Shown here: positions 16,073 through 26,488 of the stretch, piece after piece
How positions within the stretch are numbered: position 1 is the first letter of the stretch
Layout of the letters: the number at the start of each line of letters is the position of its first letter
Source: Gammaproteobacteria bacterium
GTDB taxonomy: Bacteria > Pseudomonadota > Gammaproteobacteria > Acidiferrobacterales > Sulfurifustaceae
Assembly: GCA_029863005.1 (NCBI GenBank)
Contig: JAOTWF010000015.1
Span: forward strand, 1-44,317
DNA length: 44,317 bases
Direction: 5' to 3'
Notes under the pieces: model-generated
What the model saw: the letters and a program-made list of their open reading frames with translations, nothing else
What the model was told of the DNA's origin: nothing
Databases searched by the model: none
Translations under genes and position numbers: made by a program

Positions 16073-16459
16073 TTAATCTGAATTGCGTTCCAGGCTGGCG
16101 ATAATCGGGCAGGGAGGGTGGTTACCGGCGCGGCAGGTACGAATGAGCTTTCCAAGTGTGTTATGCATAGATTTTAAGTCGTGCAGGCGCATTTCGATAT
16201 CCCCGAGCCGTTTTTCCGCGATGGCGCGGGTTTCGGGGCAGGAACCATCCCCCAGCATCAGTAATTCAGATATTTCACGCAGCGTAAACCCCAATTCCTG
16301 GGCGCGCCGGATGAAGCGCAGGCACATAAGCGATTCGGAGGAATAGCGGCGTGCACCGCCCGGGGGCTTGCGCGGCGTGGGCAGCAGACCACGACGCTGA
16401 TAGTAGCGAACGGTTTCGATATTCACGCCGGCTTCGCGCGCCAACCGGCCGATCGTCAT
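16073..16459 (-). CDS. merR: MerR-family regulator, mercury-type
   Basis: 128 residues from ATG 16459. The winged-helix N-terminus is MTIGRLAREAGVNIETVRYY, followed by a long dimerisation helix. Three Cys, at 74 (GSCPET), 109 (IRTCRAG) and 117 (PPCPIIASLE), fall where Hg(II)-responsive MerR proteins have their three ligands; spacing 35 then 8, against 35 then 9 in Tn501 MerR. The closing CPIIASL strongly resembles mercuric MerR. It likely represses and, on Hg(II) or a similar soft metal, activates the promoter at 17524-17555. As the third gene of that operon it would regulate itself. An upstream extension of the frame is not coding-like. Metal identity is inferred. Confidence 0.85.
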   Translation of the reverse strand: MTIGRLAREAGVNIETVRYYQRRGLLPTPRKPPGGARRYSSESLMCLRFIRRAQELGFTLREISELLMLGDGSCPETRAIAEKRLGDIEMRLHDLKSMHNTLGKLIRTCRAGNHPPCPIIASLERNSD

Positions 16460-16484
16460 GCTTGTCTGTGGCACGAATGACGAC

Positions 16485-16751
16485 CTAGAGCGGTTGTCCC
16501 GCTCCTGCCGCGCGCAGGGTTTTCTCATCCGGCCCGCGCCCGGCACAGCAATCCGCGAGCTGTCCATTGATCACCACGGCCGGGATTGAACGAATGCCGA
16601 GTTTTTTCGCTCGTGCGGCCACATCGGGTTTCTTGGTATCCAGCACCGTGACTTCGCAGGATGAGCAGGCGATTTGATTTACCAGCGATATGGTCTCTGC
16701 ACACACCGGGCAGCCGGCGCTGAAGACTTCTATCTGACGTTTTACGCTCAT
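16485..16751 (-). CDS. thioredoxin-like Cys-rich protein of the mer-like operon
   Basis: 88 residues, thioredoxin/glutaredoxin fold: strand RQIEVFSAGCPVC with Cys14-x-x-Cys17, a second pair CSSC at 29-32, cis-Pro strand IRSIPAVVINGQL, and a vicinal Cys68-Cys69 (ADCCAGRGP). Six Cys in 88 residues suggests handling of a thiophilic metal or of disulfides. It overlaps the MerC-like gene by four bases (ATGA) and precedes merR, so it belongs to the MerR-controlled operon. It might take metal from the transporter and pass it to a cytoplasmic sink, or act as a reductant. No mercuric reductase is present in the window. Confidence 0.8.
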   Translation of the reverse strand: MSVKRQIEVFSAGCPVCAETISLVNQIACSSCEVTVLDTKKPDVAARAKKLGIRSIPAVVINGQLADCCAGRGPDEKTLRAAGAGQPL

Positions 16752-17494
16752 GATGTACCTCCTTTGAGTCTTTCAACCGTGCCTGGTTCCCCGTCGGTGA
16801 CACAAGCAGGACAGGGGGCCGATGAATTTCGTCGGGGCCAGGCATTCCACAACGAAGTACCGACAAGTAGGAAGATTCCTGTGTATGCCGCCGCATCGGA
16901 GTTGAACTGGTATTTTCCGATGAGTATCAAGGTTGCCGCCAGCACGCCCAGGATCAAGGGGTTGTATCCACCTCGCGCTTTGGCTTTCCAGGCGAGCGAG
17001 ACAAGCACGATAAAGAGAAAGGCAGTAGTCAGTGGCATCAGAAAAGGGGTGTAGTTGATAAAACCGATGCCCATGGCGCTCAAGATTGCTGTATAGGCCG
17101 GCCAACATACCGGGCAGACCAGTTTTGGCATCAGCACGGTCCCGACCGCTGGAAGAAGGGACACTGCATTCTTGCCTATTCCCGTTTTGGTTTGCTTGCC
17201 GAGCGCTGAAACGATCAGGGACACGGGCGGGATTCCTTGTTTCATGCCTTGGTCATTGGTGTAAATCCGGCAACAAGCCGCATCGGCGGCAGACACATCG
17301 GCAACATCTTGCCTGTTTACCAGAATCGTGGGTGAACCGCATGCCCTGACATAGTTCGGTGCATTAATATCGGCGCGATCCCATTCCCGCCATCGCAGGG
17401 CGTGCCCAGCCCGGTTAAGCGCGCGCAACAGGTTTTCGCGGGTCTGCGTTACGTTGGGGCAATCCCTGTCATAGATAAGTTCAACGGTGGTCAT
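16748..17494 (-). CDS. thioredoxin-fold/MerC-like membrane transporter fusion
   Basis: 248 residues in two parts. Residues 1-100 look like a thioredoxin-fold domain: VELIYDRDCPNV with Cys12, and ACGSPTILVNRQDV with Cys52, plus a vicinal Cys74-Cys75. Residues 108-222 hold about four membrane helices in the MerC pattern: Cys127-x-x-Cys130 in the first helix (PKLVCPVCWPAY), then MGIGFINY, and a last helix ending GTSLWNAWPRR, with a C-terminal pair CPAC (228-231). MerC proteins import Hg(II) through Cys pairs. The Cys pairs along the chain suggest a handover route. First gene of the mer-like operon, starting 30 bases downstream of its promoter. Confidence 0.8.
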   Translation of the reverse strand: MTTVELIYDRDCPNVTQTRENLLRALNRAGHALRWREWDRADINAPNYVRACGSPTILVNRQDVADVSAADAACCRIYTNDQGMKQGIPPVSLIVSALGKQTKTGIGKNAVSLLPAVGTVLMPKLVCPVCWPAYTAILSAMGIGFINYTPFLMPLTTAFLFIVLVSLAWKAKARGGYNPLILGVLAATLILIGKYQFNSDAAAYTGIFLLVGTSLWNAWPRRNSSAPCPACVTDGEPGTVERLKGGTS

Positions 17495-17523: not shown

Positions 17524-17555
17524 AGGATATGCTCCGTACCCCGGTACAGTGTCAA
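17524..17555 (-). promoter_or_regulatory. MerR-type promoter and operator
   Basis: On the minus strand TTGACA (17550-17555) and TATCCT (17524-17529) are 20 bases apart, the long spacing typical of MerR-controlled promoters. Between them lies the dyad CTGTAC-CGGG-GTACGG (17534-17549), nearly the mer operator of Tn501 (CCGTAC-ATGA-GTACGG). The -35 hexamer overlaps the cusA stop codon. It should drive the MerC-like/thioredoxin/merR operon. Confidence 0.8.
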
Positions 17556-20500
17556 GTCGAGTAGATTATTACTGGATTTTTTGCCACCACCCTGAGTTTC
17601 CATAATAAATATGCCGCCGGGATCACAACCAGCGTCAGAATGGCCACACTCAGCATGCCGCCCACCATTGGCGCCGCGATGCGCTGCATGGCCTCCGATC
17701 CGGTACCTTCGCTCCATAAAATCGGCAGCAGGGCGGCGATGATGGCGACCTTGGTCATGGTGACGGGCCGCACTCGCAGGAGGGCGCCCTCAACCACCGC
17801 CTCGTGCACATCATCCCTTGTCAACTTCTGGCCCTTGGTGTGGCGTTCCGTTTCGCGTCGCCGGAGCGCCTGATCGAGATACGCCAGCATCACCACGCCG
17901 ATTTCGACCGCGACACCTCCCAGCGCGATGAAGCCCACGGCAACGGCAACAGACAGGTTGTATCCCAGAAGATATAGCAGCCAGAAGCCACCCACCAGGG
18001 CCAGCGGCAGTGTGGCAATCACGATGAGCACTTCCATGCCGTTGCGAAAATTGAGGTAGAGCAGCAGCAGGATAATGACTAGCGTAAAAGGGATGACGAC
18101 CTTCAGGCGTTCGAGAGCGCGCTGCATGTATTCGAACTGGCCGGCCCAGTGGAGCGAATAGCCCGGCGGCAATTTCACTGTTTTCTCCACTGATCTTTTG
18201 GCGTCGGCCACATAAGAGCCGATGTCACGATCACGCATATCGATATAGGTCCAACCTGACAATCGCGCATTTTCGCTGCGTATCATGTCGGGGCCATCCA
18301 CCACGCGGACGTCGGCCACTTCAGATAGCGCGATCTGGATGCCGCTCATGGTGACCAGCGGCAAGGCGCGCAGGCGGGCGAGCGAACCCCGGATGTCCTG
18401 GGGATAGCGGATATTGACCGGATAACGCTCACGCCCCTCGATGGTATCGGTGACATTCATGCCGCCGACGGCTGTAGCCACGGTTTCCTGGATGTCTGCG
18501 ATGTTCATGCCGAAGCGTGAGGCACGATTTCGGTCGATACGAACGTCCACGTAGCGCGCACCGGTGACACGCTCAGAGTAAACCGAAACCGTCCCCGGGA
18601 CGGAACGTACCGCGGATTCGATTTCCTGGCCGATGATCTCGATGGTGGCGAGCGACGGCCCCGAGACTTTCACGCCAACGGGAGTTCGGATGCCGGTGGT
18701 CAGCATGTCGATGCGCGTCTTGATTGGCATCACGTAGGCATTGGAAAGCCCCGAAAACTTCGTGGCTTGATTCATCTCCTGGATGAGTTTCTTGGTGGTC
18801 ATCCCTGGCCGCCATTCGGACTTCGGTTTCAGCTGTATCGTGGTTTCGAACATGGACAGCGGTGCCGGGTCGGTCGCTGTTTCCGCCCGCCCGCTTTTGC
18901 CGAATACGCTTTCCACTTCGGGGAAGGTCTTGAGTATCCTGTCCGTCTGCTGCAGGAGCTGTTGCGCCTTGCCAGAACCGAGGCTGGGTAGGGTGGTGGG
19001 CATGTACAGGATATCGCCTTCATCCATGTCCGGCATGAATTCAGACCCGAGCTGGACAACGGGATAAGCGCCCAAAACGACGAGAACCACGGCGCCCCAC
19101 AATATCGTTCGAGGACGGGCTAAAGTCCACTTCAGCATCGGCCGGTAGCCGCGTATCAGCCAACGGTTCAGTGGATTTTCCTGCTCGCTGCGTATGTGAC
19201 CACGGATGAAGTAACCCATGAGCACGGGCACGAGTGTGATCGACAGCACCGCGGCGGCAGCCATGGCATAAGTCTTGGTGAAGGCCAGTGGCGAGAACAG
19301 CCGGCCCTCCTGGGCTTCGAGGGCGAACACCGGAATGAAACTCAGCGCGATGATGAGCAGCGAATAGAACAGCGGCGGGCCAAGTTCCTCGGTCGCGGTG
19401 CGGACGATGGCCCAGCGATTTTCGTCGGTGACCTTTTGCTTTTCGAAGTGCTTGTGCACGTTCTCGATCATGACGATGGAGGCGTCCACCATCGCGCCAA
19501 TGGCGATGGCGATGCCGCCGAGCGACATGATATTGGCGTTAATACCTTGTTGTTTCATGATGATGAAACTGATGAGGATGCCGATGGGCAGCGTGACTAT
19601 GACGACCAGCGAGGAGCGCAGATGGAACAGGAATACGAGACAAACTACCGCCACTACGATAAATTCCTCTAAGAGCGTCCCAGTGAGATTGTTAACGGCT
19701 CTTTTTATTACTGCCGAACGGTCATAGGTGGTTACAATCTCAACGCCCTCCGGCAGGCTTTTTCTGAGAATCTCCAGCCTGGCCTTGGTCGCGTTGATGG
19801 TGGCAAGCGCATTCTCCCCGTGACGCATGACAATGATACCACCCGTAACCTCGCCTTCGCCGTTCAGTTCGGCAATCCCGCGGCGCATCTCGGGCCCAAT
19901 CCGAATGTCCGCCACGTGATCCAGACGGATGGGCGCGCCGGAGGACGTGACCCCGAGGGGCAAGGCGCGCAGATCCCTCTCGTTCTTGATATATCCGCGA
20001 ACGCGGATCATGTACTCCGCCTCCGCCATTTCGATGACCGAGCCACCGGTTTCCTGGTTGCCTTCTTTAATGGCCTTGCGCAGCGACTCGAGCGTCAGGC
20101 GGTACGCGCGAAGTTTTACCGGGTCCACGACCACCTGGTATTGCTTCACCATGCCGCCCACGGTCGCGACCTCGGCCACCCCCGGGACCGTGCGCAATTC
20201 GTACTTGAGGAACCAGTCCTGCAATGTCCGAAGTTGCGCCAGGTCATGTTTGCCGGTGTGGTCAATCAGCGCGTATGCGTATACCCAGCCGACCCCCGTG
20301 GCGTCCGGCCCGAGCGCGGGTCGTGCCCCACGCGGCAAGCGCGGCAGGACCTGGCTCAGATACTCGAGCACGCGCGAGCGTGCCCAGTACAAATCCGTGC
20401 CATCCTTGAACAGAACATAGACAAAGGACTCGCCGAACTGGGAAAAACCGCGCACCGTCGTTGCTCCCGGTACCGAGAGCATGGCGGTGGTCAACGGGTA

Positions 20501-20698
20501 GGTCACCTGGTCTTCCACAACCTGCGGCGCTTGGCCTGGGTAACTCGTCTGGATAATGACTTGCACGTCCGAGAGATCGGGAATCGCATCGAGTGGCGTG
20601 CGGGCAACAGCATATATACCCCAGGCCACCAGGATGGCGGTGAGCAACAACACCAGGAAGCGGTTGCGGATCGACCACCGGATGAGGCGAGCGATCAC
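17552..20698 (-). CDS. cusA: CusA/CzcA-type heavy-metal RND efflux pump
   Basis: 1048 residues, full length for heavy-metal-efflux RND pumps, with twelve membrane helices and two large periplasmic loops. The proton-relay helix 4 is intact (GAMVDASIVMIENVH, with Asp and Glu). MPIKTRIDMLTTGIRTPVGV corresponds to the region holding a copper-binding Met in CusA, and Met residues are frequent around it, which favours Cu(I)/Ag(I) over Zn/Co/Ni, but this is not decisive. GFIALGGVAVEIGVVMLAYL and RVRPVTMTKVAIIAALLPIL are conserved family segments. It exports metal across the envelope with CusB and CusC. Start overlaps cusB by four bases (ATGA). The stop overlaps the mer-type promoter. Confidence 0.92.
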   Translation of the reverse strand: MIARLIRWSIRNRFLVLLLTAILVAWGIYAVARTPLDAIPDLSDVQVIIQTSYPGQAPQVVEDQVTYPLTTAMLSVPGATTVRGFSQFGESFVYVLFKDGTDLYWARSRVLEYLSQVLPRLPRGARPALGPDATGVGWVYAYALIDHTGKHDLAQLRTLQDWFLKYELRTVPGVAEVATVGGMVKQYQVVVDPVKLRAYRLTLESLRKAIKEGNQETGGSVIEMAEAEYMIRVRGYIKNERDLRALPLGVTSSGAPIRLDHVADIRIGPEMRRGIAELNGEGEVTGGIIVMRHGENALATINATKARLEILRKSLPEGVEIVTTYDRSAVIKRAVNNLTGTLLEEFIVVAVVCLVFLFHLRSSLVVIVTLPIGILISFIIMKQQGINANIMSLGGIAIAIGAMVDASIVMIENVHKHFEKQKVTDENRWAIVRTATEELGPPLFYSLLIIALSFIPVFALEAQEGRLFSPLAFTKTYAMAAAAVLSITLVPVLMGYFIRGHIRSEQENPLNRWLIRGYRPMLKWTLARPRTILWGAVVLVVLGAYPVVQLGSEFMPDMDEGDILYMPTTLPSLGSGKAQQLLQQTDRILKTFPEVESVFGKSGRAETATDPAPLSMFETTIQLKPKSEWRPGMTTKKLIQEMNQATKFSGLSNAYVMPIKTRIDMLTTGIRTPVGVKVSGPSLATIEIIGQEIESAVRSVPGTVSVYSERVTGARYVDVRIDRNRASRFGMNIADIQETVATAVGGMNVTDTIEGRERYPVNIRYPQDIRGSLARLRALPLVTMSGIQIALSEVADVRVVDGPDMIRSENARLSGWTYIDMRDRDIGSYVADAKRSVEKTVKLPPGYSLHWAGQFEYMQRALERLKVVIPFTLVIILLLLYLNFRNGMEVLIVIATLPLALVGGFWLLYLLGYNLSVAVAVGFIALGGVAVEIGVVMLAYLDQALRRRETERHTKGQKLTRDDVHEAVVEGALLRVRPVTMTKVAIIAALLPILWSEGTGSEAMQRIAAPMVGGMLSVAILTLVVIPAAYLLWKLRVVAKNPVIIYST

Positions 20699-21591
20699 GG
20701 TTTGTGACCTTCATGGCCGGTTTGCAGTTCGGCAGGAGCGGACTCCATGCGTTTGAAGCTCGAGCGCACGCTTGCTTCGGAATCGATCAAGAACTGGCCC
20801 GAGGTCACGACCTTATCGCCTTCCTTGATGCCTTGCCGGATTTCAATCCAGTCACCGGATTCCTCACCCGGCACCACCTCGATAGACTGAAACCGGCCGC
20901 CACCCAGCGCCAACACCAGGGCGTTACGGTGTCCGGTACGGATCAGCGCCTCGCGCGGCACCATGATTTTCTTGTCATGAGGCCGCATGTCCCGGATGAG
21001 CACTTCGGCGTACATGTTGGGCTTGAGCACGGTATCCGGATTGGTGATGCGCACGCTCGCCTTGAGCGACCGCGTGCCGATATCCACGTCGGGTTTCACG
21101 CTTTCCACCACCCCGTTCCATTGGCGGCCGGGTAAATCCGGAATGCGGATTTCAACAGGCAGTCCCGCCCGCACCCAATTCATTTCACGGTCGAAGGTGT
21201 CCAGCAACACCCGGAGTCCGCCCCTTTCGCGGAACAAGTAGCCTTGTGCCTCGAGCGTGTGCACGGCACCCCCCTTGGTCACCGTGTGTATCCGCACGCC
21301 GAAGCTCTGGATGAACTCCGGCCGGACCGTGATCACCGGGGGACCATCGTCTCCCGCTTCATCCGCGTACACCGGCACCAATTGCATGTCCATGAAGGGT
21401 GACTTCCCGGGTTTATCGCTGCGATAGCCGGGCACCATTGGATCGGTCCAATAGAGAACCTTGCGCTTCATTTTCGCATCGTCTCCTGCGTTGGCGGAGT
21501 TCTTTTCCCAGTCAAGAAAGTGCCAGCTAACGGCGGCGCTGACCACCATTCCGGCCGCAATGATCATGGTGAATAGTGTGTTCCGCTTCAT
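20695..21591 (-). CDS. cusB: CusB-type periplasmic adaptor lacking the lipoyl/hairpin region
   Basis: 298 residues, compared with about 400 in E. coli CusB. An N-terminal anchor (LFTMIIAAGMVVSAAVSW) is followed by a heavy-metal-binding segment, VLYWTDPMVPGYRSDKPGKS with PFMDMQLVPVY (Met-rich). Residues 86-118 match the start of the adaptor, and residues 127-275 (from RVLLDTFDREMNWVRAG to SGQFLIDSEASV) match the beta-barrel and membrane-proximal domains. The roughly 110 residues that form the lipoyl domain and alpha-helical hairpin in other CusB proteins are missing at about residue 120. The frame is intact, so this is either a genuine compact adaptor or a precise in-frame deletion. Overlaps cusC and cusA by four bases each. 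Confidence 0.85.
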   Translation of the reverse strand: MKRNTLFTMIIAAGMVVSAAVSWHFLDWEKNSANAGDDAKMKRKVLYWTDPMVPGYRSDKPGKSPFMDMQLVPVYADEAGDDGPPVITVRPEFIQSFGVRIHTVTKGGAVHTLEAQGYLFRERGGLRVLLDTFDREMNWVRAGLPVEIRIPDLPGRQWNGVVESVKPDVDIGTRSLKASVRITNPDTVLKPNMYAEVLIRDMRPHDKKIMVPREALIRTGHRNALVLALGGGRFQSIEVVPGEESGDWIEIRQGIKEGDKVVTSGQFLIDSEASVRSSFKRMESAPAELQTGHEGHKP

Positions 21592-22835
21592 GGCTGAGAT
21601 TCTCCGGTGAGATATAAAAGTTCGGCTTGCGCCTTGGTCTGATCGACCCGCAGGCGCGTGTATTCGAGCTCGGTGTCAAACGTCTTCATAAGTGCGTCGC
21701 GGTATTCGACCTGATCGCGGGCGAATCCGGCCACGGTGACCTGTGATTCGCGACGGATGGCGGGCAGGAGTTCCCGCGCAAAGATTTTCTCGCGCTCCGC
21801 CAGCGCTTCAAATTCGGCGCGCATGGAATGGTACATGGCTTCCAGCTCGCGTCGCTTTTCTTCAATCTCGTATCGGGCGCCAGCTTCCATGGATTGTTTT
21901 TCGGCCAGTCGCCGGTCCTGGCGTTTTTCCCGAAAGATCGGCATATCCAGCGTGACCATGGCACTCAACATGTCCGGACGTTCCGTTCCATCCGGCATCG
22001 GCCGGCGATAGCCATAGGTAAGATCCAGCATCCAACCGGGTTTGTATTCCTGACGTGCCATGTCAACCTCGATACGCGCCTGTTCCAGACCGTATTGCGC
22101 CGCTAGCCATTCCGGATGCCGGGTATGATCGAAAGAACTGGAAACGGGCGGAAGTGAGGGGAAATCGGACGGCAATGCTTGATAGGCCGCCTCACCTACC
22201 CAACGTGCCAGTTGCGCCTGCAGGCGCGCGATTTGCGCCCGCAGCATTGGCTCGCGTTCGTTCAGGCGCGCCAGTGCTTGCTGCGCCTGCAACACGGATT
22301 GCTGCATGGCCTGTGCGGCACGGTAGCGCGCCTCCGCTGCTTCCAGCTGTTTCCGGGCCAGACGATGCAGCTCTTGCAGCGTGTTTAGGGATTGCTGTTG
22401 GTAATAAAGCTCAACCCAGGTCTGGCGCACCTGTCGCAACAGATTGCGGTATTCGATCTCGACGCGCGCCTGTTCGCGGGTGAGCTCCTTCTCGGCGCGC
22501 TGTCCCTTCAGCTTGAGCACATCGCCCGGAGGAAACGCTTGGCGGATGCCAACCATCGTCATGGTCATGTCCTCGCGATCGAGCCGGTAGGAGTCTGTCG
22601 GAACATTCAAGAATCCCAGCGTAAGCTGAGGGTCGGGCAGTCGGCTTTCGTAGACCACGCGCTCGGCCGCGGCTTTGGCGCCAGTGCGGTGGTGCTTCAG
22701 CCACGGGGCATTTTCCAGCGCGAGACGCTCGGCTTCAGATAGCGTTAACCCGGGGCTGGCCAGAACCGGGGTTATCCCAGCCAGCAGGGCGATCAGAATT
22801 CCCGCGAGGCGGGATGAAACGATACGAATGGACAT
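21588..22835 (-). CDS. cusC: CusC/TolC-type outer membrane efflux protein
   Basis: 415 residues, signal peptide (LAGILIALLAGITPVLAS), no lipobox Cys, then the duplicated outer-membrane efflux protein fold dominated by long coiled-coil helices (LTREQARVEIEYRNLL, ALARLNEREPMLRAQI, LEAMYHSMRAEFEALA). It forms the outer-membrane exit duct for the CusBA pump. Like many heavy-metal-operon relatives it is short and lacks the lipid anchor of E. coli CusC. AGGAGA lies 5 bases before ATG 22835, but that site is half of a 9-bp inverted repeat and may be masked in the mRNA. First of the three overlapping pump genes. Confidence 0.9.
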   Translation of the reverse strand: MSIRIVSSRLAGILIALLAGITPVLASPGLTLSEAERLALENAPWLKHHRTGAKAAAERVVYESRLPDPQLTLGFLNVPTDSYRLDREDMTMTMVGIRQAFPPGDVLKLKGQRAEKELTREQARVEIEYRNLLRQVRQTWVELYYQQQSLNTLQELHRLARKQLEAAEARYRAAQAMQQSVLQAQQALARLNEREPMLRAQIARLQAQLARWVGEAAYQALPSDFPSLPPVSSSFDHTRHPEWLAAQYGLEQARIEVDMARQEYKPGWMLDLTYGYRRPMPDGTERPDMLSAMVTLDMPIFREKRQDRRLAEKQSMEAGARYEIEEKRRELEAMYHSMRAEFEALAEREKIFARELLPAIRRESQVTVAGFARDQVEYRDALMKTFDTELEYTRLRVDQTKAQAELLYLTGESQP

Positions 22836-22837
22836 AT

Positions 22838-22893
22838 ATCTCTCCTAACAGACATAGACAGAACCACATAGCGCACAAACGCGCAGGAGAGAT
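22838..22893 (-). promoter_or_regulatory. hairpin able to sequester the cusC ribosome-binding site
   Basis: On the minus strand ATCTCTCCT (22885-22893) follows directly after the stop codon of the upstream ORF and is perfectly complementary to AGGAGAGAT (22838-22846), which contains the cusC Shine-Dalgarno sequence. A nested GCGC/GCGC stem lies in the loop. A ribosome terminating on the upstream ORF would disrupt the stem, so cusC translation could depend on translation of that ORF, or on temperature. Confidence 0.6.
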
Positions 22894-23340
22894 TTATATC
22901 AACAGAGTGAGATGCCGGATATGAAGCGGAGGTGCAGGAATATCGGGTGTGAGAAAATCATGCCGTTGATAACGGGCAGCTTCGGACCGGATGATCGTCA
23001 CGGGCAACGTCGTCAGCAAGACCGGTGCTACGGCAAAACTGCCGAAAGCGACGGTTAGCGGCGTACCCGTCTGGGGAATCTGGCAATTAATCGCCGCCAC
23101 CGGGCAGCACTCCGGGGCCACGGTAAGTTCTGCCCTGTTGTGTTTAGAGTGTACGGGGCACTGTTGAGAATCGGGATTGTGATCAACTGTTTGTGCTGCG
23201 ACGCACGGGGTGGCGGCCGCGACTAACCAAAGCGATCCCGCAAGGGCGAGTATTCCCTGCCCAAGAATTTTCAACTTCTTGCGAAACCAGCGCAGCATGA
23301 TTGACAGTCTAGCCCGTATACAAGAGGCGGTTTGCCTCAT
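22894..23340 (-). CDS. small Cys-rich exported protein at head of cus operon
   Basis: 148 residues as an open frame from 23340, or 134 from ATG 23298. A membrane or signal segment (ILGQGILALAGSLWLVAAAT) is followed by a short Cys/His-rich part, QQCPVHSKHN and PECCPVAAINCQ, then a hydrophobic stretch and the ending PPLHIRHLTLLI. Small proteins with this architecture sit at the head of many copper-efflux operons. I do not recognise a named family with certainty. The Cys/His motifs suggest periplasmic metal binding. A GGAAGG site supports the longer start. It is 58 bases upstream of cusC, and its stop codon adjoins the hairpin masking the cusC ribosome site, so it may also serve as a leader ORF. 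Confidence 0.6.
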   Translation of the reverse strand: MRQTASCIRARLSIMLRWFRKKLKILGQGILALAGSLWLVAAATPCVAAQTVDHNPDSQQCPVHSKHNRAELTVAPECCPVAAINCQIPQTGTPLTVAFGSFAVAPVLLTTLPVTIIRSEAARYQRHDFLTPDIPAPPLHIRHLTLLI

Positions 23341-23379
23341 CCATTGACCCTTCCAAGTCGGTAAAGTTTATTCCCGTGA

Positions 23380-23407
23380 ACAATATTTAGTTCTTGACCC
23401 CGGTCAA
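23380..23407 (-). promoter_or_regulatory. promoter with palindromic operator for the cus operon
   Basis: Minus strand TTGACC (23402-23407) and TATTGT (23380-23385) are 16 bases apart, a fair sigma-70 promoter, about 40 bases upstream of the Cys-rich ORF. The -35 box is one arm of a perfect 6-bp inverted repeat TTGACC-CC-GGTCAA (23394-23407), a likely repressor or activator site. No cognate regulator gene for it is adjacent. Confidence 0.5.
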
Positions 23408-23450
23408 TAATAGCCTATCTCCTCGGAGCAGGTCGTCCGGAATGGCCGGA

Positions 23451-24860
23451 TCAGAAAGGGAGCGGGAGACCGGGGTGGGCAGTCAGGACAAGCTCCCGGA
23501 AGCTTACTTGAATACGGTCCAATGCCTGCTGATTGTCCGCTTCGAAGCGGAATACCAGCACTGGGGTGGTGTTGGAGGCGCGCACCAGGCCGAAGCCGTC
23601 GGAGAAATCCGCGCGCAGGCCGTCAATGGTCGTGAGCTTCGCGTCCGGGAAATGTGCGCGCTCCACCAGTTCCTGGATCAGGGCAAAATGCTCGCCCTCG
23701 GAGAGCTTGAGATTTAATTCCGGCGTATTCAAAGTATTTGGCAGCGAGGCGAAGATCTCCTGTGTCGGGCGGGGGTCGCGCGATAGGAGCTCCAGCAGGC
23801 GCGCGCCGGTGTACAGGCCGTCGTCGAAACCGTACCAGCGTTCTTTAAAGAAGATATGCCCGCTCATTTCGCCCGCGAGCAATGCCCCGGTTTCCCGAAG
23901 TTTGGCCTTGATAAACGAGTGCCCCGTTTTCCACATGGTGGGCTTGCCGCCAGCCTTGCGTATTTCGGTATCCAATGTGCGCGAGCATTTCACGTCGTAG
24001 ATGATTTCGCCGCCGGGATGACGCGAAAGCACGTCACGCGCGTACAGGATCATCTGGCGATCGGCCCAGATTACGTGGCCGTCCGGCGCGATGACGCCGA
24101 GGCGATCGCCATCGCCGTCGAAGGCCAAGCCGACGTCGTAACCGCCCTTTTTGATTTCAGCGATCAAATCTTCGAGATTTTCCGGCTTGCTCGGGTCGGG
24201 ATGATGATTGGGAAAGGTGCCATCAATCTGACAGAAGAGCTCGGTTACTTGGCAGCCGAGGCGCTTGAGCAACTGCGGTGCCAGCTCGCCAGCGACGCCA
24301 TTGCCGCAATCCACGGCCACGCGCATCGCGCGTGCGAGCTTCACATCATTCGCCACGCGGTCAAGATAGGCCGTGCGCACGTCAGCTTGAGAAACGGATC
24401 CCTCACCGGTCACGAGATCCTTTTTTTGTATTCGGGCACGTAATTGCTGAATCGCCTCGCCCGAAAGCGTGACGCCGCCAATGACCATCTTAAGGCCGTT
24501 ATAATCGGGCGGATTGTGGCTACCGGTGACGGCCACCCCGGAGCCCGCGCCAAGATGCTGAATGGCAAAATAGACCACCGGAGTGGGCACCATGCCGATA
24601 TCCACTACATCGCAACCGCTGCGGGCGATTCCCCGGGAAAGTGCCGCCACCAGCTCCGGCCCGGAGAGACGCCCATCGCGACCGATCACGAAGCGTTTCT
24701 GGTCTTGCGCCCGTGCCTCGCTGCCGAGGGCCTGGCCGATGACTTCCACGATTGGCGGCGTCAGGGTTTTGCCGACAATTCCGCGGATGTCATAGGCCTT
24801 GAAGATTTCCGGAGGAAGCGCGTGATTCACCGCCGCGGTGACGGTATGGGATTTCGGCAT
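23451..24860 (-). CDS. algC: phosphomannomutase/phosphoglucomutase
   Basis: 469 residues, a complete alpha-D-phosphohexomutase. The phosphoserine loop is VTGSHNPPDYNGLK (catalytic Ser114), the Mg-binding loop is AFDGDGDRLG (248-253), the sugar-binding loop is LAGEMSGHIFF, and the phosphate-binding C-terminal loop is RASNTTPVLVFRFE. The N-terminus IFKAYDIRGIVG is standard for AlgC-type enzymes, which interconvert 6- and 1-phosphates of mannose and glucose for LPS and exopolysaccharide synthesis. The order coaBC-dut-algC is common in Pseudomonas-type gammaproteobacteria; here a GGDEF gene separates dut and algC. Confidence 0.93.
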   Translation of the reverse strand: MPKSHTVTAAVNHALPPEIFKAYDIRGIVGKTLTPPIVEVIGQALGSEARAQDQKRFVIGRDGRLSGPELVAALSRGIARSGCDVVDIGMVPTPVVYFAIQHLGAGSGVAVTGSHNPPDYNGLKMVIGGVTLSGEAIQQLRARIQKKDLVTGEGSVSQADVRTAYLDRVANDVKLARAMRVAVDCGNGVAGELAPQLLKRLGCQVTELFCQIDGTFPNHHPDPSKPENLEDLIAEIKKGGYDVGLAFDGDGDRLGVIAPDGHVIWADRQMILYARDVLSRHPGGEIIYDVKCSRTLDTEIRKAGGKPTMWKTGHSFIKAKLRETGALLAGEMSGHIFFKERWYGFDDGLYTGARLLELLSRDPRPTQEIFASLPNTLNTPELNLKLSEGEHFALIQELVERAHFPDAKLTTIDGLRADFSDGFGLVRASNTTPVLVFRFEADNQQALDRIQVSFRELVLTAHPGLPLPF

Positions 24861-24967
24861 GGCGTGTAATTAAAAAGATTGGATGCGTTAACCAGGAGTT
24901 TACCGTATCCCGGCGATTCAGGCGAGGCACGTGCGGGCTTCGTTTTGAGGAGAAGCGCGCCCTGCCT

Positions 24968-26488
24968 TCAGCTGGCCATGATCTGTTTTTTCACAGGCGC
25001 ACCGGTGACGGGGTCGTATATTTTCGTGTTGTTACGTCCGGATTCCTTGGCTTGCAACAGCGCCTGGTCGGCGCGCCACAGGACGTCGTCCGGTTTGGTG
25101 TCCTTGTCGTGCATGGAGCTTAAACCGCCGGTCCAGCGTAACTGATGGATGACTCCTTTGGTCAACGGAATTTCTCGTGGCAACTGCCGGCGCAGGCGTT
25201 CGACCAACCCCGTGGCTTTATTCAGCGGGGCGTAGGAATAAATAATGCAGAATTCATCTCCGCCGAGACGGACGAGCACGTCCGTCTGGCGTACCACCTT
25301 GCGCAGCGCATTCGCGAAACCGACGATCAGCGCATCCCCCGCGTCGTGTCCATGATTATCATTCACCGCTTTGAAATGATCCATGTCGATGATCAGCACG
25401 GAAGAAGGTCCGTTGGATTTGGCGGCCTCGAACAACTCCTTAAGTCGCTTCTCGAAATGCCGACGGTTGCCAAGTTGCGAAAGATGGTCCATCAACCCCA
25501 TGTCCTTAAGTTGTTCCTTTTCCTTGACCAGTTTCTGTCCGCGGTCACGGAGATACTCAAAAATATCGGTAAATTCCTTCAGGGCCATCGGGTAGCTGAC
25601 GCGCACGCTGCCTTCGCGCAAATCCTGGAACATGCGAATCAGGGATTGGATATCATGCCGCACGGACTTGACGGTTCGGCGATAGAGCCGGTATAGCATC
25701 ATCAGGACAATGGCGAAGATGATTATCGCTGACCAGAAATAAATGTTCCGGTATCCAGACAGAAGGCGGGGAGGCGCCTCGGCGTCTTGGTAAAACAACA
25801 TCCAGCCACTTCCGCCGATTTCACTTATCATGGAAACGCTTCCAGCGTTCGAAGCCGTCCCGACAGTCAGTACGGCTTGAGTGGTTCCACGCGATGCTGG
25901 CTGCTGGAGTTCCAGGTAGGCATTCTGCGGCAATGATTGTTTCAGGATGGCTTGTACCGGGGCGCGGGAGAAGCCCACCAGCAGATATCCGGTCATATTC
26001 TGTCTCTCGTCCCTGACAGAGACGGCCAGCTTGTAATGTTCGGAGGTTGTACCGATCTCGTGAAATTCCGGTTTCGCCGATTGGCTACTGGCTGTCATGC
26101 GCCTGACATAATCGAGAGATGCCGGGTCCAGTGTTGCGGCCGAAGACACCGGGCCGCTATCCGTCCATGGAAGTAGATCAACTGAGACCGCTTCGGGTAT
26201 TTGTGATCTGATCTCGGCTGCCTTGCGTGAGAGTTCTGCCGTCGTACCATGTTGTAACACGGTCAACACACCGGATTGTTTTGCAAAGGCTCCCAGCGAC
26301 TGGCGCTGTTGGGACAGAAGCTCGGCAATCCGGCTGGACGTATCCAGTGCCACCCTCGAGGCCCTGTCCTGATAGGACAATTGTTGCATGTCGCGCACAG
26401 CAAGATAGCTGACGTATCCGATCGCCAGAAAGCAAAGAATCAGAATCAGGATGACCTGAAGATATATGCGAGTCAGCGACTGGGCCAT
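24968..26488 (-). CDS. membrane-bound diguanylate cyclase
   Basis: 506 residues from ATG 26488, preceded by AAAGGA; the open frame extends 11 codons to a TTG at 26521. Two membrane helices (about 8-30 and 245-268) flank a periplasmic sensor region of some 215 residues with a cache-like look (SYQDRASRVALDTSSRIAEL at its start, YLLVGFSRAPVQ near its middle). After a HAMP-length linker and coiled coil (GQKLVKEKEQLKDMGLMDHL), the GGDEF domain has DMDHFKAVND, an RxxD inhibitory site (RQTD), and active-site RLGGDEFC. It should synthesise c-di-GMP in response to an external signal. Its position between algC and dut may tie it to exopolysaccharide production. Confidence 0.9.
   Translation of the reverse strand: MAQSLTRIYLQVILILILCFLAIGYVSYLAVRDMQQLSYQDRASRVALDTSSRIAELLSQQRQSLGAFAKQSGVLTVLQHGTTAELSRKAAEIRSQIPEAVSVDLLPWTDSGPVSSAATLDPASLDYVRRMTASSQSAKPEFHEIGTTSEHYKLAVSVRDERQNMTGYLLVGFSRAPVQAILKQSLPQNAYLELQQPASRGTTQAVLTVGTASNAGSVSMISEIGGSGWMLFYQDAEAPPRLLSGYRNIYFWSAIIIFAIVLMMLYRLYRRTVKSVRHDIQSLIRMFQDLREGSVRVSYPMALKEFTDIFEYLRDRGQKLVKEKEQLKDMGLMDHLSQLGNRRHFEKRLKELFEAAKSNGPSSVLIIDMDHFKAVNDNHGHDAGDALIVGFANALRKVVRQTDVLVRLGGDEFCIIYSYAPLNKATGLVERLRRQLPREIPLTKGVIHQLRWTGGLSSMHDKDTKPDDVLWRADQALLQAKESGRNNTKIYDPVTGAPVKKQIMAS

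Follow-up and report, generated by a model that had tools for sequence, protein, structure and literature searches.

What sets the output of a copper/silver-type RND efflux pump whose genes lie directly behind a small Cys-rich reading frame? Copper/silver RND pumps are regarded as transcriptionally controlled (CusRS, CueR). In the window, that is, the whole 44,317-nucleotide stretch of DNA analyzed here, the genes cusC, cusB and cusA are encoded on the minus strand, and an upstream open reading frame (uORF) ends shortly before cusC. The initial annotation pointed to an inverted repeat at this junction and suggested that it masks the cusC ribosome site until a ribosome terminating on the uORF opens it. 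We propose herein that the uORF is probably a CutF-like cis-regulatory leader of the pump, in which the stop codon abuts a stem that hides the Shine-Dalgarno (SD) sequence of cusC, and translation of the uORF switches the pump on. The features on which this reading rests are collected in Table 1.

Table 1. Features of the uORF-cusCBA region of the window
Feature	Position	Strand	Evidence
-10-like hexamer TAGACT, conserved, 7 nt ahead of the uORF ATG (TAAACT in most relatives)	23306..23311	minus	
CutF-like uORF, 134 aa: signal-peptide-like N-terminus, Cys/His-rich middle, tail DIPAPPLHIRHLTLLI ending at the stop	22894..23298	minus	
Left-arm extension: last Ile codon of the uORF and stop UAA, pairing with the cusC AUG region	22894..22900	minus	
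Anti-SD arm AUCUCUCCU	22885..22893	minus	Sequence; position pairs with the SD in 36/36 loci
Loop with two inner hairpins (GCGC-GUUUGU-GCGC; the second of GUCG-CGAC type in relatives)	22849..22884	minus	
SD of cusC, AGGAGAGAU, right arm of the stem	22838..22846	minus	Sequence, repeat search, folding
cusC, outer-membrane efflux protein, 415 aa, putatively gated gene	21588..22835	minus	PF02321, E 3.9e-40
cusB, short periplasmic adaptor, 298 aa, 4-nt overlap with cusC	20695..21591	minus	
cusA, RND permease, 1048 aa, 4-nt overlap with cusB	17552..20698	minus	TIGR00914, 1282 bits

On the minus strand, the uORF stop codon TAA (22896-22894) is followed directly by ATCTCTCCT (22893-22885), and the SD of cusC, AGGAGAGAT (22846-22838), stands just ahead of the cusC ATG (22835-22833). 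All nine bases of ATCTCTCCT form Watson-Crick pairs with this SD, so that the perfect 9-bp repeat described in the initial annotation, right after the uORF stop and over the cusC SD, was borne out. Its length was understated, since the true arms (22885-22900 and 22831-22846) comprise 16 nt each, are 88% complementary and have 38 nt between them. The longer stem includes the last Ile codon and the UAA of the uORF on one arm and the cusC AUG on the other. The stem also formed when the leader RNA was folded, as had been recommended; the minimum free energy of 111 nt was -26.2 kcal/mol (z = -2.08), and 6 of 200 shuffles folded equally well. None of 500 dinucleotide shuffles matched the pairing of the post-stop 20-mer with the SD region. 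The unpaired probability of the SD in the window was 0.27, so that it is incompletely shut. By duplex energy alone the window is unremarkable, as 6 of 48 control gene pairs reach the same value; the significance of its stem lies instead in conserved placement. None of 4227 Rfam covariance models matched positions 20000-25500 of the window up to an E value of 1.

Relatives for comparison were picked by protein similarity alone. A protein-only search recovered uORF homologues in 19 of the 57 genomes of the order, including 9/9 of the genus, and all 19 have a gene for a pump outer-membrane protein 44-77 nt downstream and an anti-SD at the stop codon. Scanning of genome contigs with the window uORF alone gave no match; a search of genome contigs with the genus alignment gave seven, and the named relatives were Sulfuricaulis and allied groundwater MAGs. 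More distant loci were added by searching 369 genomes of the class, plus several families, with a profile, and a phylum-wide profile search, which returned weak matches only, was excluded from the analysis. Loci with an outer-membrane pump gene within about 110 nt of the uORF were retained, 36 altogether. Left out were four uORF matches without such a gene within that distance (L026, L031, L076 and L077), duplicates of loci that were in the count already (L020, L067, L068, L073 and L078) and the weak matches L061-L066. Start codons of several loci were assigned by eye from the SD. One genome (G049) contains two uORF-pump loci (L018 and L033) with near-identical uORF tails, different outer-membrane proteins and a stem of its own for each, and at another locus (L010, about 890-960; genome G055) the pump gene has an in-frame TAG 17 codons past its start, through decay or an assembly error.

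Placement of the stem was scored in the minimum-energy fold from stop to start, with at least five bases of the SD window paired with the first 15 post-stop nt. Such pairing was found in all discovery loci (30/30) and all out-of-sample ones (6/6), i.e. 36/36, and in 3 of 48 controls (Fisher p about 1e-20); with one locus per genus the score was 23/23 (p about 1e-15). The controls were tandem gene pairs that have an SD and are 40-110 nt apart, drawn with a simple ORF caller from 60 stretches of 20 kb in the genomes of two relatives. In addition, a 12-nt segment was moved along the RNA between 45 nt ahead of the stop codon and 27 nt beyond it, and its pairing energy with the SD was recorded. The mean was control-like, about -4 to -6 kcal/mol, everywhere but at the first post-stop bases, where it peaked at -11.3 as against -6.1 kcal/mol in the controls at offset 0. 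Conservation of the pairing in relatives, on which the initial annotation had staked its reading, therefore held. These comparisons show that the layout, as predicted by folding, has been kept from one gammaproteobacterial family to another and in a betaproteobacterium.

Several helices are kept with a different sequence, namely GCTCCTTTTTC/GAAAAAGGAGC, CTTCCTCCT/AGGAGGAAG, ATCTCCTCC/GGAGGAGAT and GAAGCAACG/CGTTGCTTT. For instance, L028 forms GCUCCUUUUUC/GAAAAAGGAGC as opposed to AUCUCUCCU/AGGAGAGAU in the window, L030 forms CUUCCUCCU/AGGAGGAAG, L075 forms AUCUCCUCC/GGAGGAGAU, and L070 forms CGUUCGCCUUUG/CAAGGAGAACG with one internal mismatch. Such turnover of sequence between families with the helix kept is the real covariation. 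Within the genus, covariation is weak (two pairs changed on both sides, a number equaled by 86 of 500 shuffles), because the SD side is nearly invariant. The register is nonetheless clear there: 91% of cells are paired, and 34-60% when the register is slid.

Named organisms were examined through the regions upstream of plasmid-borne cusC relatives. In SilD-SilC of Cupriavidus metallidurans pMOL30, where the SilD tail is RPPPRPLAILHCCFRI followed by the stop, the SD is sequestered by a post-stop arm, and the stem is also present in a Variovorax pair. On a Pseudomonas plasmid (L125, 1333-1432), a post-stop UUCCUGU pairs with the SD behind a uORF that ends in RPPCA, with prolines 2-3 residues from the end; since this tail is different, hiding of the SD is not bound to a single tail class. 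On a Xanthomonas euvesicatoria plasmid (L123, 1352-1470), there is an in-frame upstream ATG behind GGAGG whose SD is paired with a post-stop arm, and to fit the family layout, the TolC start as annotated probably has to be moved 12 codons upstream. SD pairing was absent from CzcI-CzcC, in which CzcI is the leader of a zinc/cobalt/cadmium pump and has no Pro tail, and from two Sphingobium genes that are not CutF-like.

The uORF had first been called from 23340 (148 aa), a start that was corrected to the ATG at 23298 from relatives that carry a stop just before this ATG. The resulting 134-aa product is within the limit of <150 aa set for CutF-like proteins (rules of PMC9973294). Its tail, PAPPLHIRHLTLLI at the stop, has PP at -11/-12, in keeping with the rule of PP in the last 15 residues, and cusC, which begins 58 nt past the uORF, agrees with the rule of a same-strand copper-related gene at <1000 nt (PMC9973294). 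A basic-hydrophobic-AxA pattern, judged by eye, is conserved in the alignment of the N-terminus. Two Cys residues, C32 and C72, are invariant across 21 uORF sequences. In all 21 (alignments A1 and A4, the latter without L012, which holds Ns), C32 is located within the putative signal peptide, some 4 residues ahead of the likely cleavage site. No Pfam or NCBIfam model matched the uORF protein, and the DUF2946 profile matched 0 of 18 family members at an E value of 1. The pair of CxxC and RAPP about 45 residues apart (the DUF2946/CruR criterion) is absent. Likewise, the uORF lacks the CxxC of CruR and the CxxxC Cu motif of CutF, the genus having Cx7C; other CutF-like clusters are known to carry variants of CxxxC. 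Near its C-terminus a RAPP/RAGP arrest motif of the SecM and ApdA type is absent; the window has PAPP.

Conservation of the uORF C-terminus is anchored at the stop codon and falls off upstream, the last 11-12 residues being the most conserved stretch, with the motif P-P-L-x-L-R-x-x-V-L-L-I before the stop. Among 22 genus representatives, 17 have Pro at -11 and 13 have Arg at -7, and most end in Leu-Leu-Ile; the context around -12/-11 is variable in relatives, and the R at -7 is conserved. The codons of the last residues differ synonymously among relatives (CTGTTGATA, CTGATCTTG, TTGCTGATT and CTGTTAATC), so that selection acts on the peptide.

Upstream of the uORF, a TA(A/G/T)ACT hexamer lies 6-8 nt ahead of the start in nearly all loci of the order (the window, L002-L012, L016 and L018), with no clear SD. 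As a lead only, the uORF transcript may be leaderless. In 8 of the 9 genus members (window about 23394-23407; L002-L008), an FNR/Anr-like palindrome, TTGAY-N4-RTCAA, occurs about 101-112 nt ahead of the uORF start. At some loci it coincides in part with the coding start of a divergent gene that begins M(T/K)LISIN(V/I)G and may be a coding coincidence, yet it is kept in the window, where the divergent gene is absent. As for the pump itself, CusB, at about 285-299 aa in the genus, is a short adaptor that matches HlyD_D23 only over the final third of that model; the part that forms the lipoyl and hairpin domains in ordinary adaptors is apparently missing from it. Beyond the 3' end of cusA (16073-17494) are a protein that resembles MerC but has an additional N-terminal domain, and a regulator of the MerR type, which scored 133 bits with the MerR model (cut-off 151) and 93 with that of CueR.

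How might these elements work together? With no ribosome at the end of the uORF, the stem would form and cusC would be poorly translated. The footprint of a bacterial ribosome extends about 15-16 nt downstream from the first P-site base, so that a ribosome with the stop codon in its A site would cover the first 9-10 post-stop nt, i.e. the anti-SD arm. It would thus melt the stem and free the cusC SD, and the suggestion that a terminating ribosome opens the stem fits the standard footprint well. Once cusC is opened, cusB and cusA would be translated too through their overlapping start and stop codons; given the 4-nt overlaps at cusC/cusB and cusB/cusA, opening of cusC should raise the whole pump, and the reach to all three genes that was originally proposed can be accommodated. 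If CutF is a guide, Cys/His residues of the putatively exported nascent chain may bind metal before its C-terminal tail has left the ribosome. Binding would then prolong the stay of the ribosome at or near the stop codon and yield more pump at high levels of periplasmic copper (or silver). That a metal-stalled nascent chain controls output, as in Rhodobacter capsulatus CutF (PMC9973294), is plausible for this pump, and an increase of output with metal is the direction expected for an efflux system.

Where the ribosome would pause is a separate matter. The Pro pair lies about 10 codons ahead of the stop codon, so that a ribosome paused there would extend only to about 20 nt before the anti-SD arm and leave the stem unreached. 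Since a conserved tail follows the prolines, the decisive pause would be expected at the last codons or at termination rather than at the prolines. It is conceivable, and we put it forward tentatively, that P-P-L-x-L-R-x-x-V-L-L-I at the stop defines a new class of metal-gated arrest peptide, which brings ribosomes to a halt on the last codons or during termination. Their footprint at that stage would then itself open the cus/sil mRNA, and many proteobacteria would have a control of efflux pumps that is separate from transcription control by CusRS/CueR.

A simpler account is plain translational coupling, in which the stem ties the pump to translation of the small protein, for stoichiometry or to avoid stray initiation, without metal-dependent stalling. 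This would satisfy all of the RNA evidence by itself. However, coupling does not need a stop-anchored stretch of 11-12 residues that is the most conserved part of the protein, nor invariant Cys residues, and the best-studied comparable system is Cu-responsive (PMC9973294). We regard coupling of this kind as possible though rather unlikely. A still less probable scheme, which we rate as improbable, follows CruR, a metal-sensing Cys uORF with a Pro motif that heads copper operons (PMC9426467). Metal would relieve stalling and bare the intergenic RNA to Rho-dependent termination, so that the uORF would control transcription of cusCBA. The window uORF nevertheless lacks both the RAPP motif and CxxC, its gap is 58 nt as opposed to 162 nt, and the feature that is conserved is pairing of the SD. 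Moreover, Cu turns an importer off in the CruR system, which is the wrong sign for an efflux pump.

The remaining explanations were rejected. One of them takes the inverted repeat for a DNA operator, or for a palindrome that arose by chance where the SD is rich in purines, and could draw on the equal duplex energy of 6/48 control pairs and on the weak covariation within the genus. It is very improbable nonetheless, because the position is locked to the stop codon in 36/36 loci and the helix is kept with unrelated sequence, unlike a protein operator. The initial annotation had also envisaged that a Cys-limited ribosome could tune the pump; in such an attenuator, slow decoding of Cys codons would set the output of cusC. 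The reading frame is indeed Cys-rich, but its Cys codons are scattered, with no Cys run, at least 62 codons ahead of the stop codon and the stem, and the last 60 codons are free of Cys. A ribosome starved at these codons cannot touch the stem, and the pump would stay off; this idea has next to no credibility.

If this reading is true, a translational switch also governs copper/silver RND pumps in many proteobacteria. Relative to the work on CutF, two points appear to be new from the sequence comparison: a stem over the SD is a general trait of the pump-linked class and keeps a fixed position at the stop codon, and the C-terminal motif anchored there is this class's own. An earlier description of the former, in subscription journals or CutF supplements, is possible. 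From the model follows a sharp prediction by which a stall at the prolines can be told apart from one at the stop codon, and SilD-SilC of C. metallidurans CH34 would be a practical system for laboratory work.

The closest known system is CutF-cutO of R. capsulatus, for which translational gating has already been published and mutants of the start codon, the Cys pair, the tail and the anti-SD behave as the model predicts (PMC9973294), direct proof of stalling being still missing (PMC10987492). Both CutF and the window uORF product, the latter putatively exported like CutF, are small and Cys-containing, with a Pro-containing C-terminus and a short gap to a copper-related target gene, whose SD is shielded by a stem (PMC9973294, PMC8456105). 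In contrast, the target is an RND pump in the window and a multicopper oxidase in CutF-cutO. The prolines are 10 codons ahead of the stop codon in the window and 2-4 residues from it in CutF (PEPEGPPPRL at the stop; PMC8456105), so that a pause at the CutF prolines does reach the stem. Unlike CutF, the window uORF has a conserved LxLRxxxLLI tail after the prolines, up to the stop, and lacks CxxxC, and its class has the anti-SD directly at the stop codon in all loci. Among CutF-like genes in general, the commonest neighbor encodes an outer-membrane efflux protein; gap lengths have been reported for this wider set, whose modes of action probably differ (PMC9973294). The window uORF would thus work like CutF and agrees with most of the CutF-like rules, and we do not claim it as CutF itself.

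SilD, which precedes silCBA on pMOL30 of C. metallidurans, resembles the window uORF in its Pro at -11 and in the sequestering of the SD by a post-stop arm, but it belongs to a beta-proteobacterium and its stem has a different sequence. A literature search short of most subscription journals found no published mechanism for SilD-silCBA. CruR of Bordetella pertussis is likewise a Cys-containing, metal-sensing uORF with a C-terminal Pro motif at the head of a copper operon; it differs in having RAPP 3 residues from the end, CxxC, a 162-nt gap, Rho-dependent termination and a Cu-off response (PMC9426467). Xanthomonas CopL, upstream of copAB, is also a cis-acting leader gene of copper operons, going by such description as PMC9973294 provides. 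Finally, arrest of the nascent chain exposes an SD in SecM-secA, and TnaC arrests at its stop codon with a C-terminal Pro (general knowledge and PMC9973294). Unlike the window uORF, SecM and TnaC respond to export status or tryptophan, and their motifs are unrelated.
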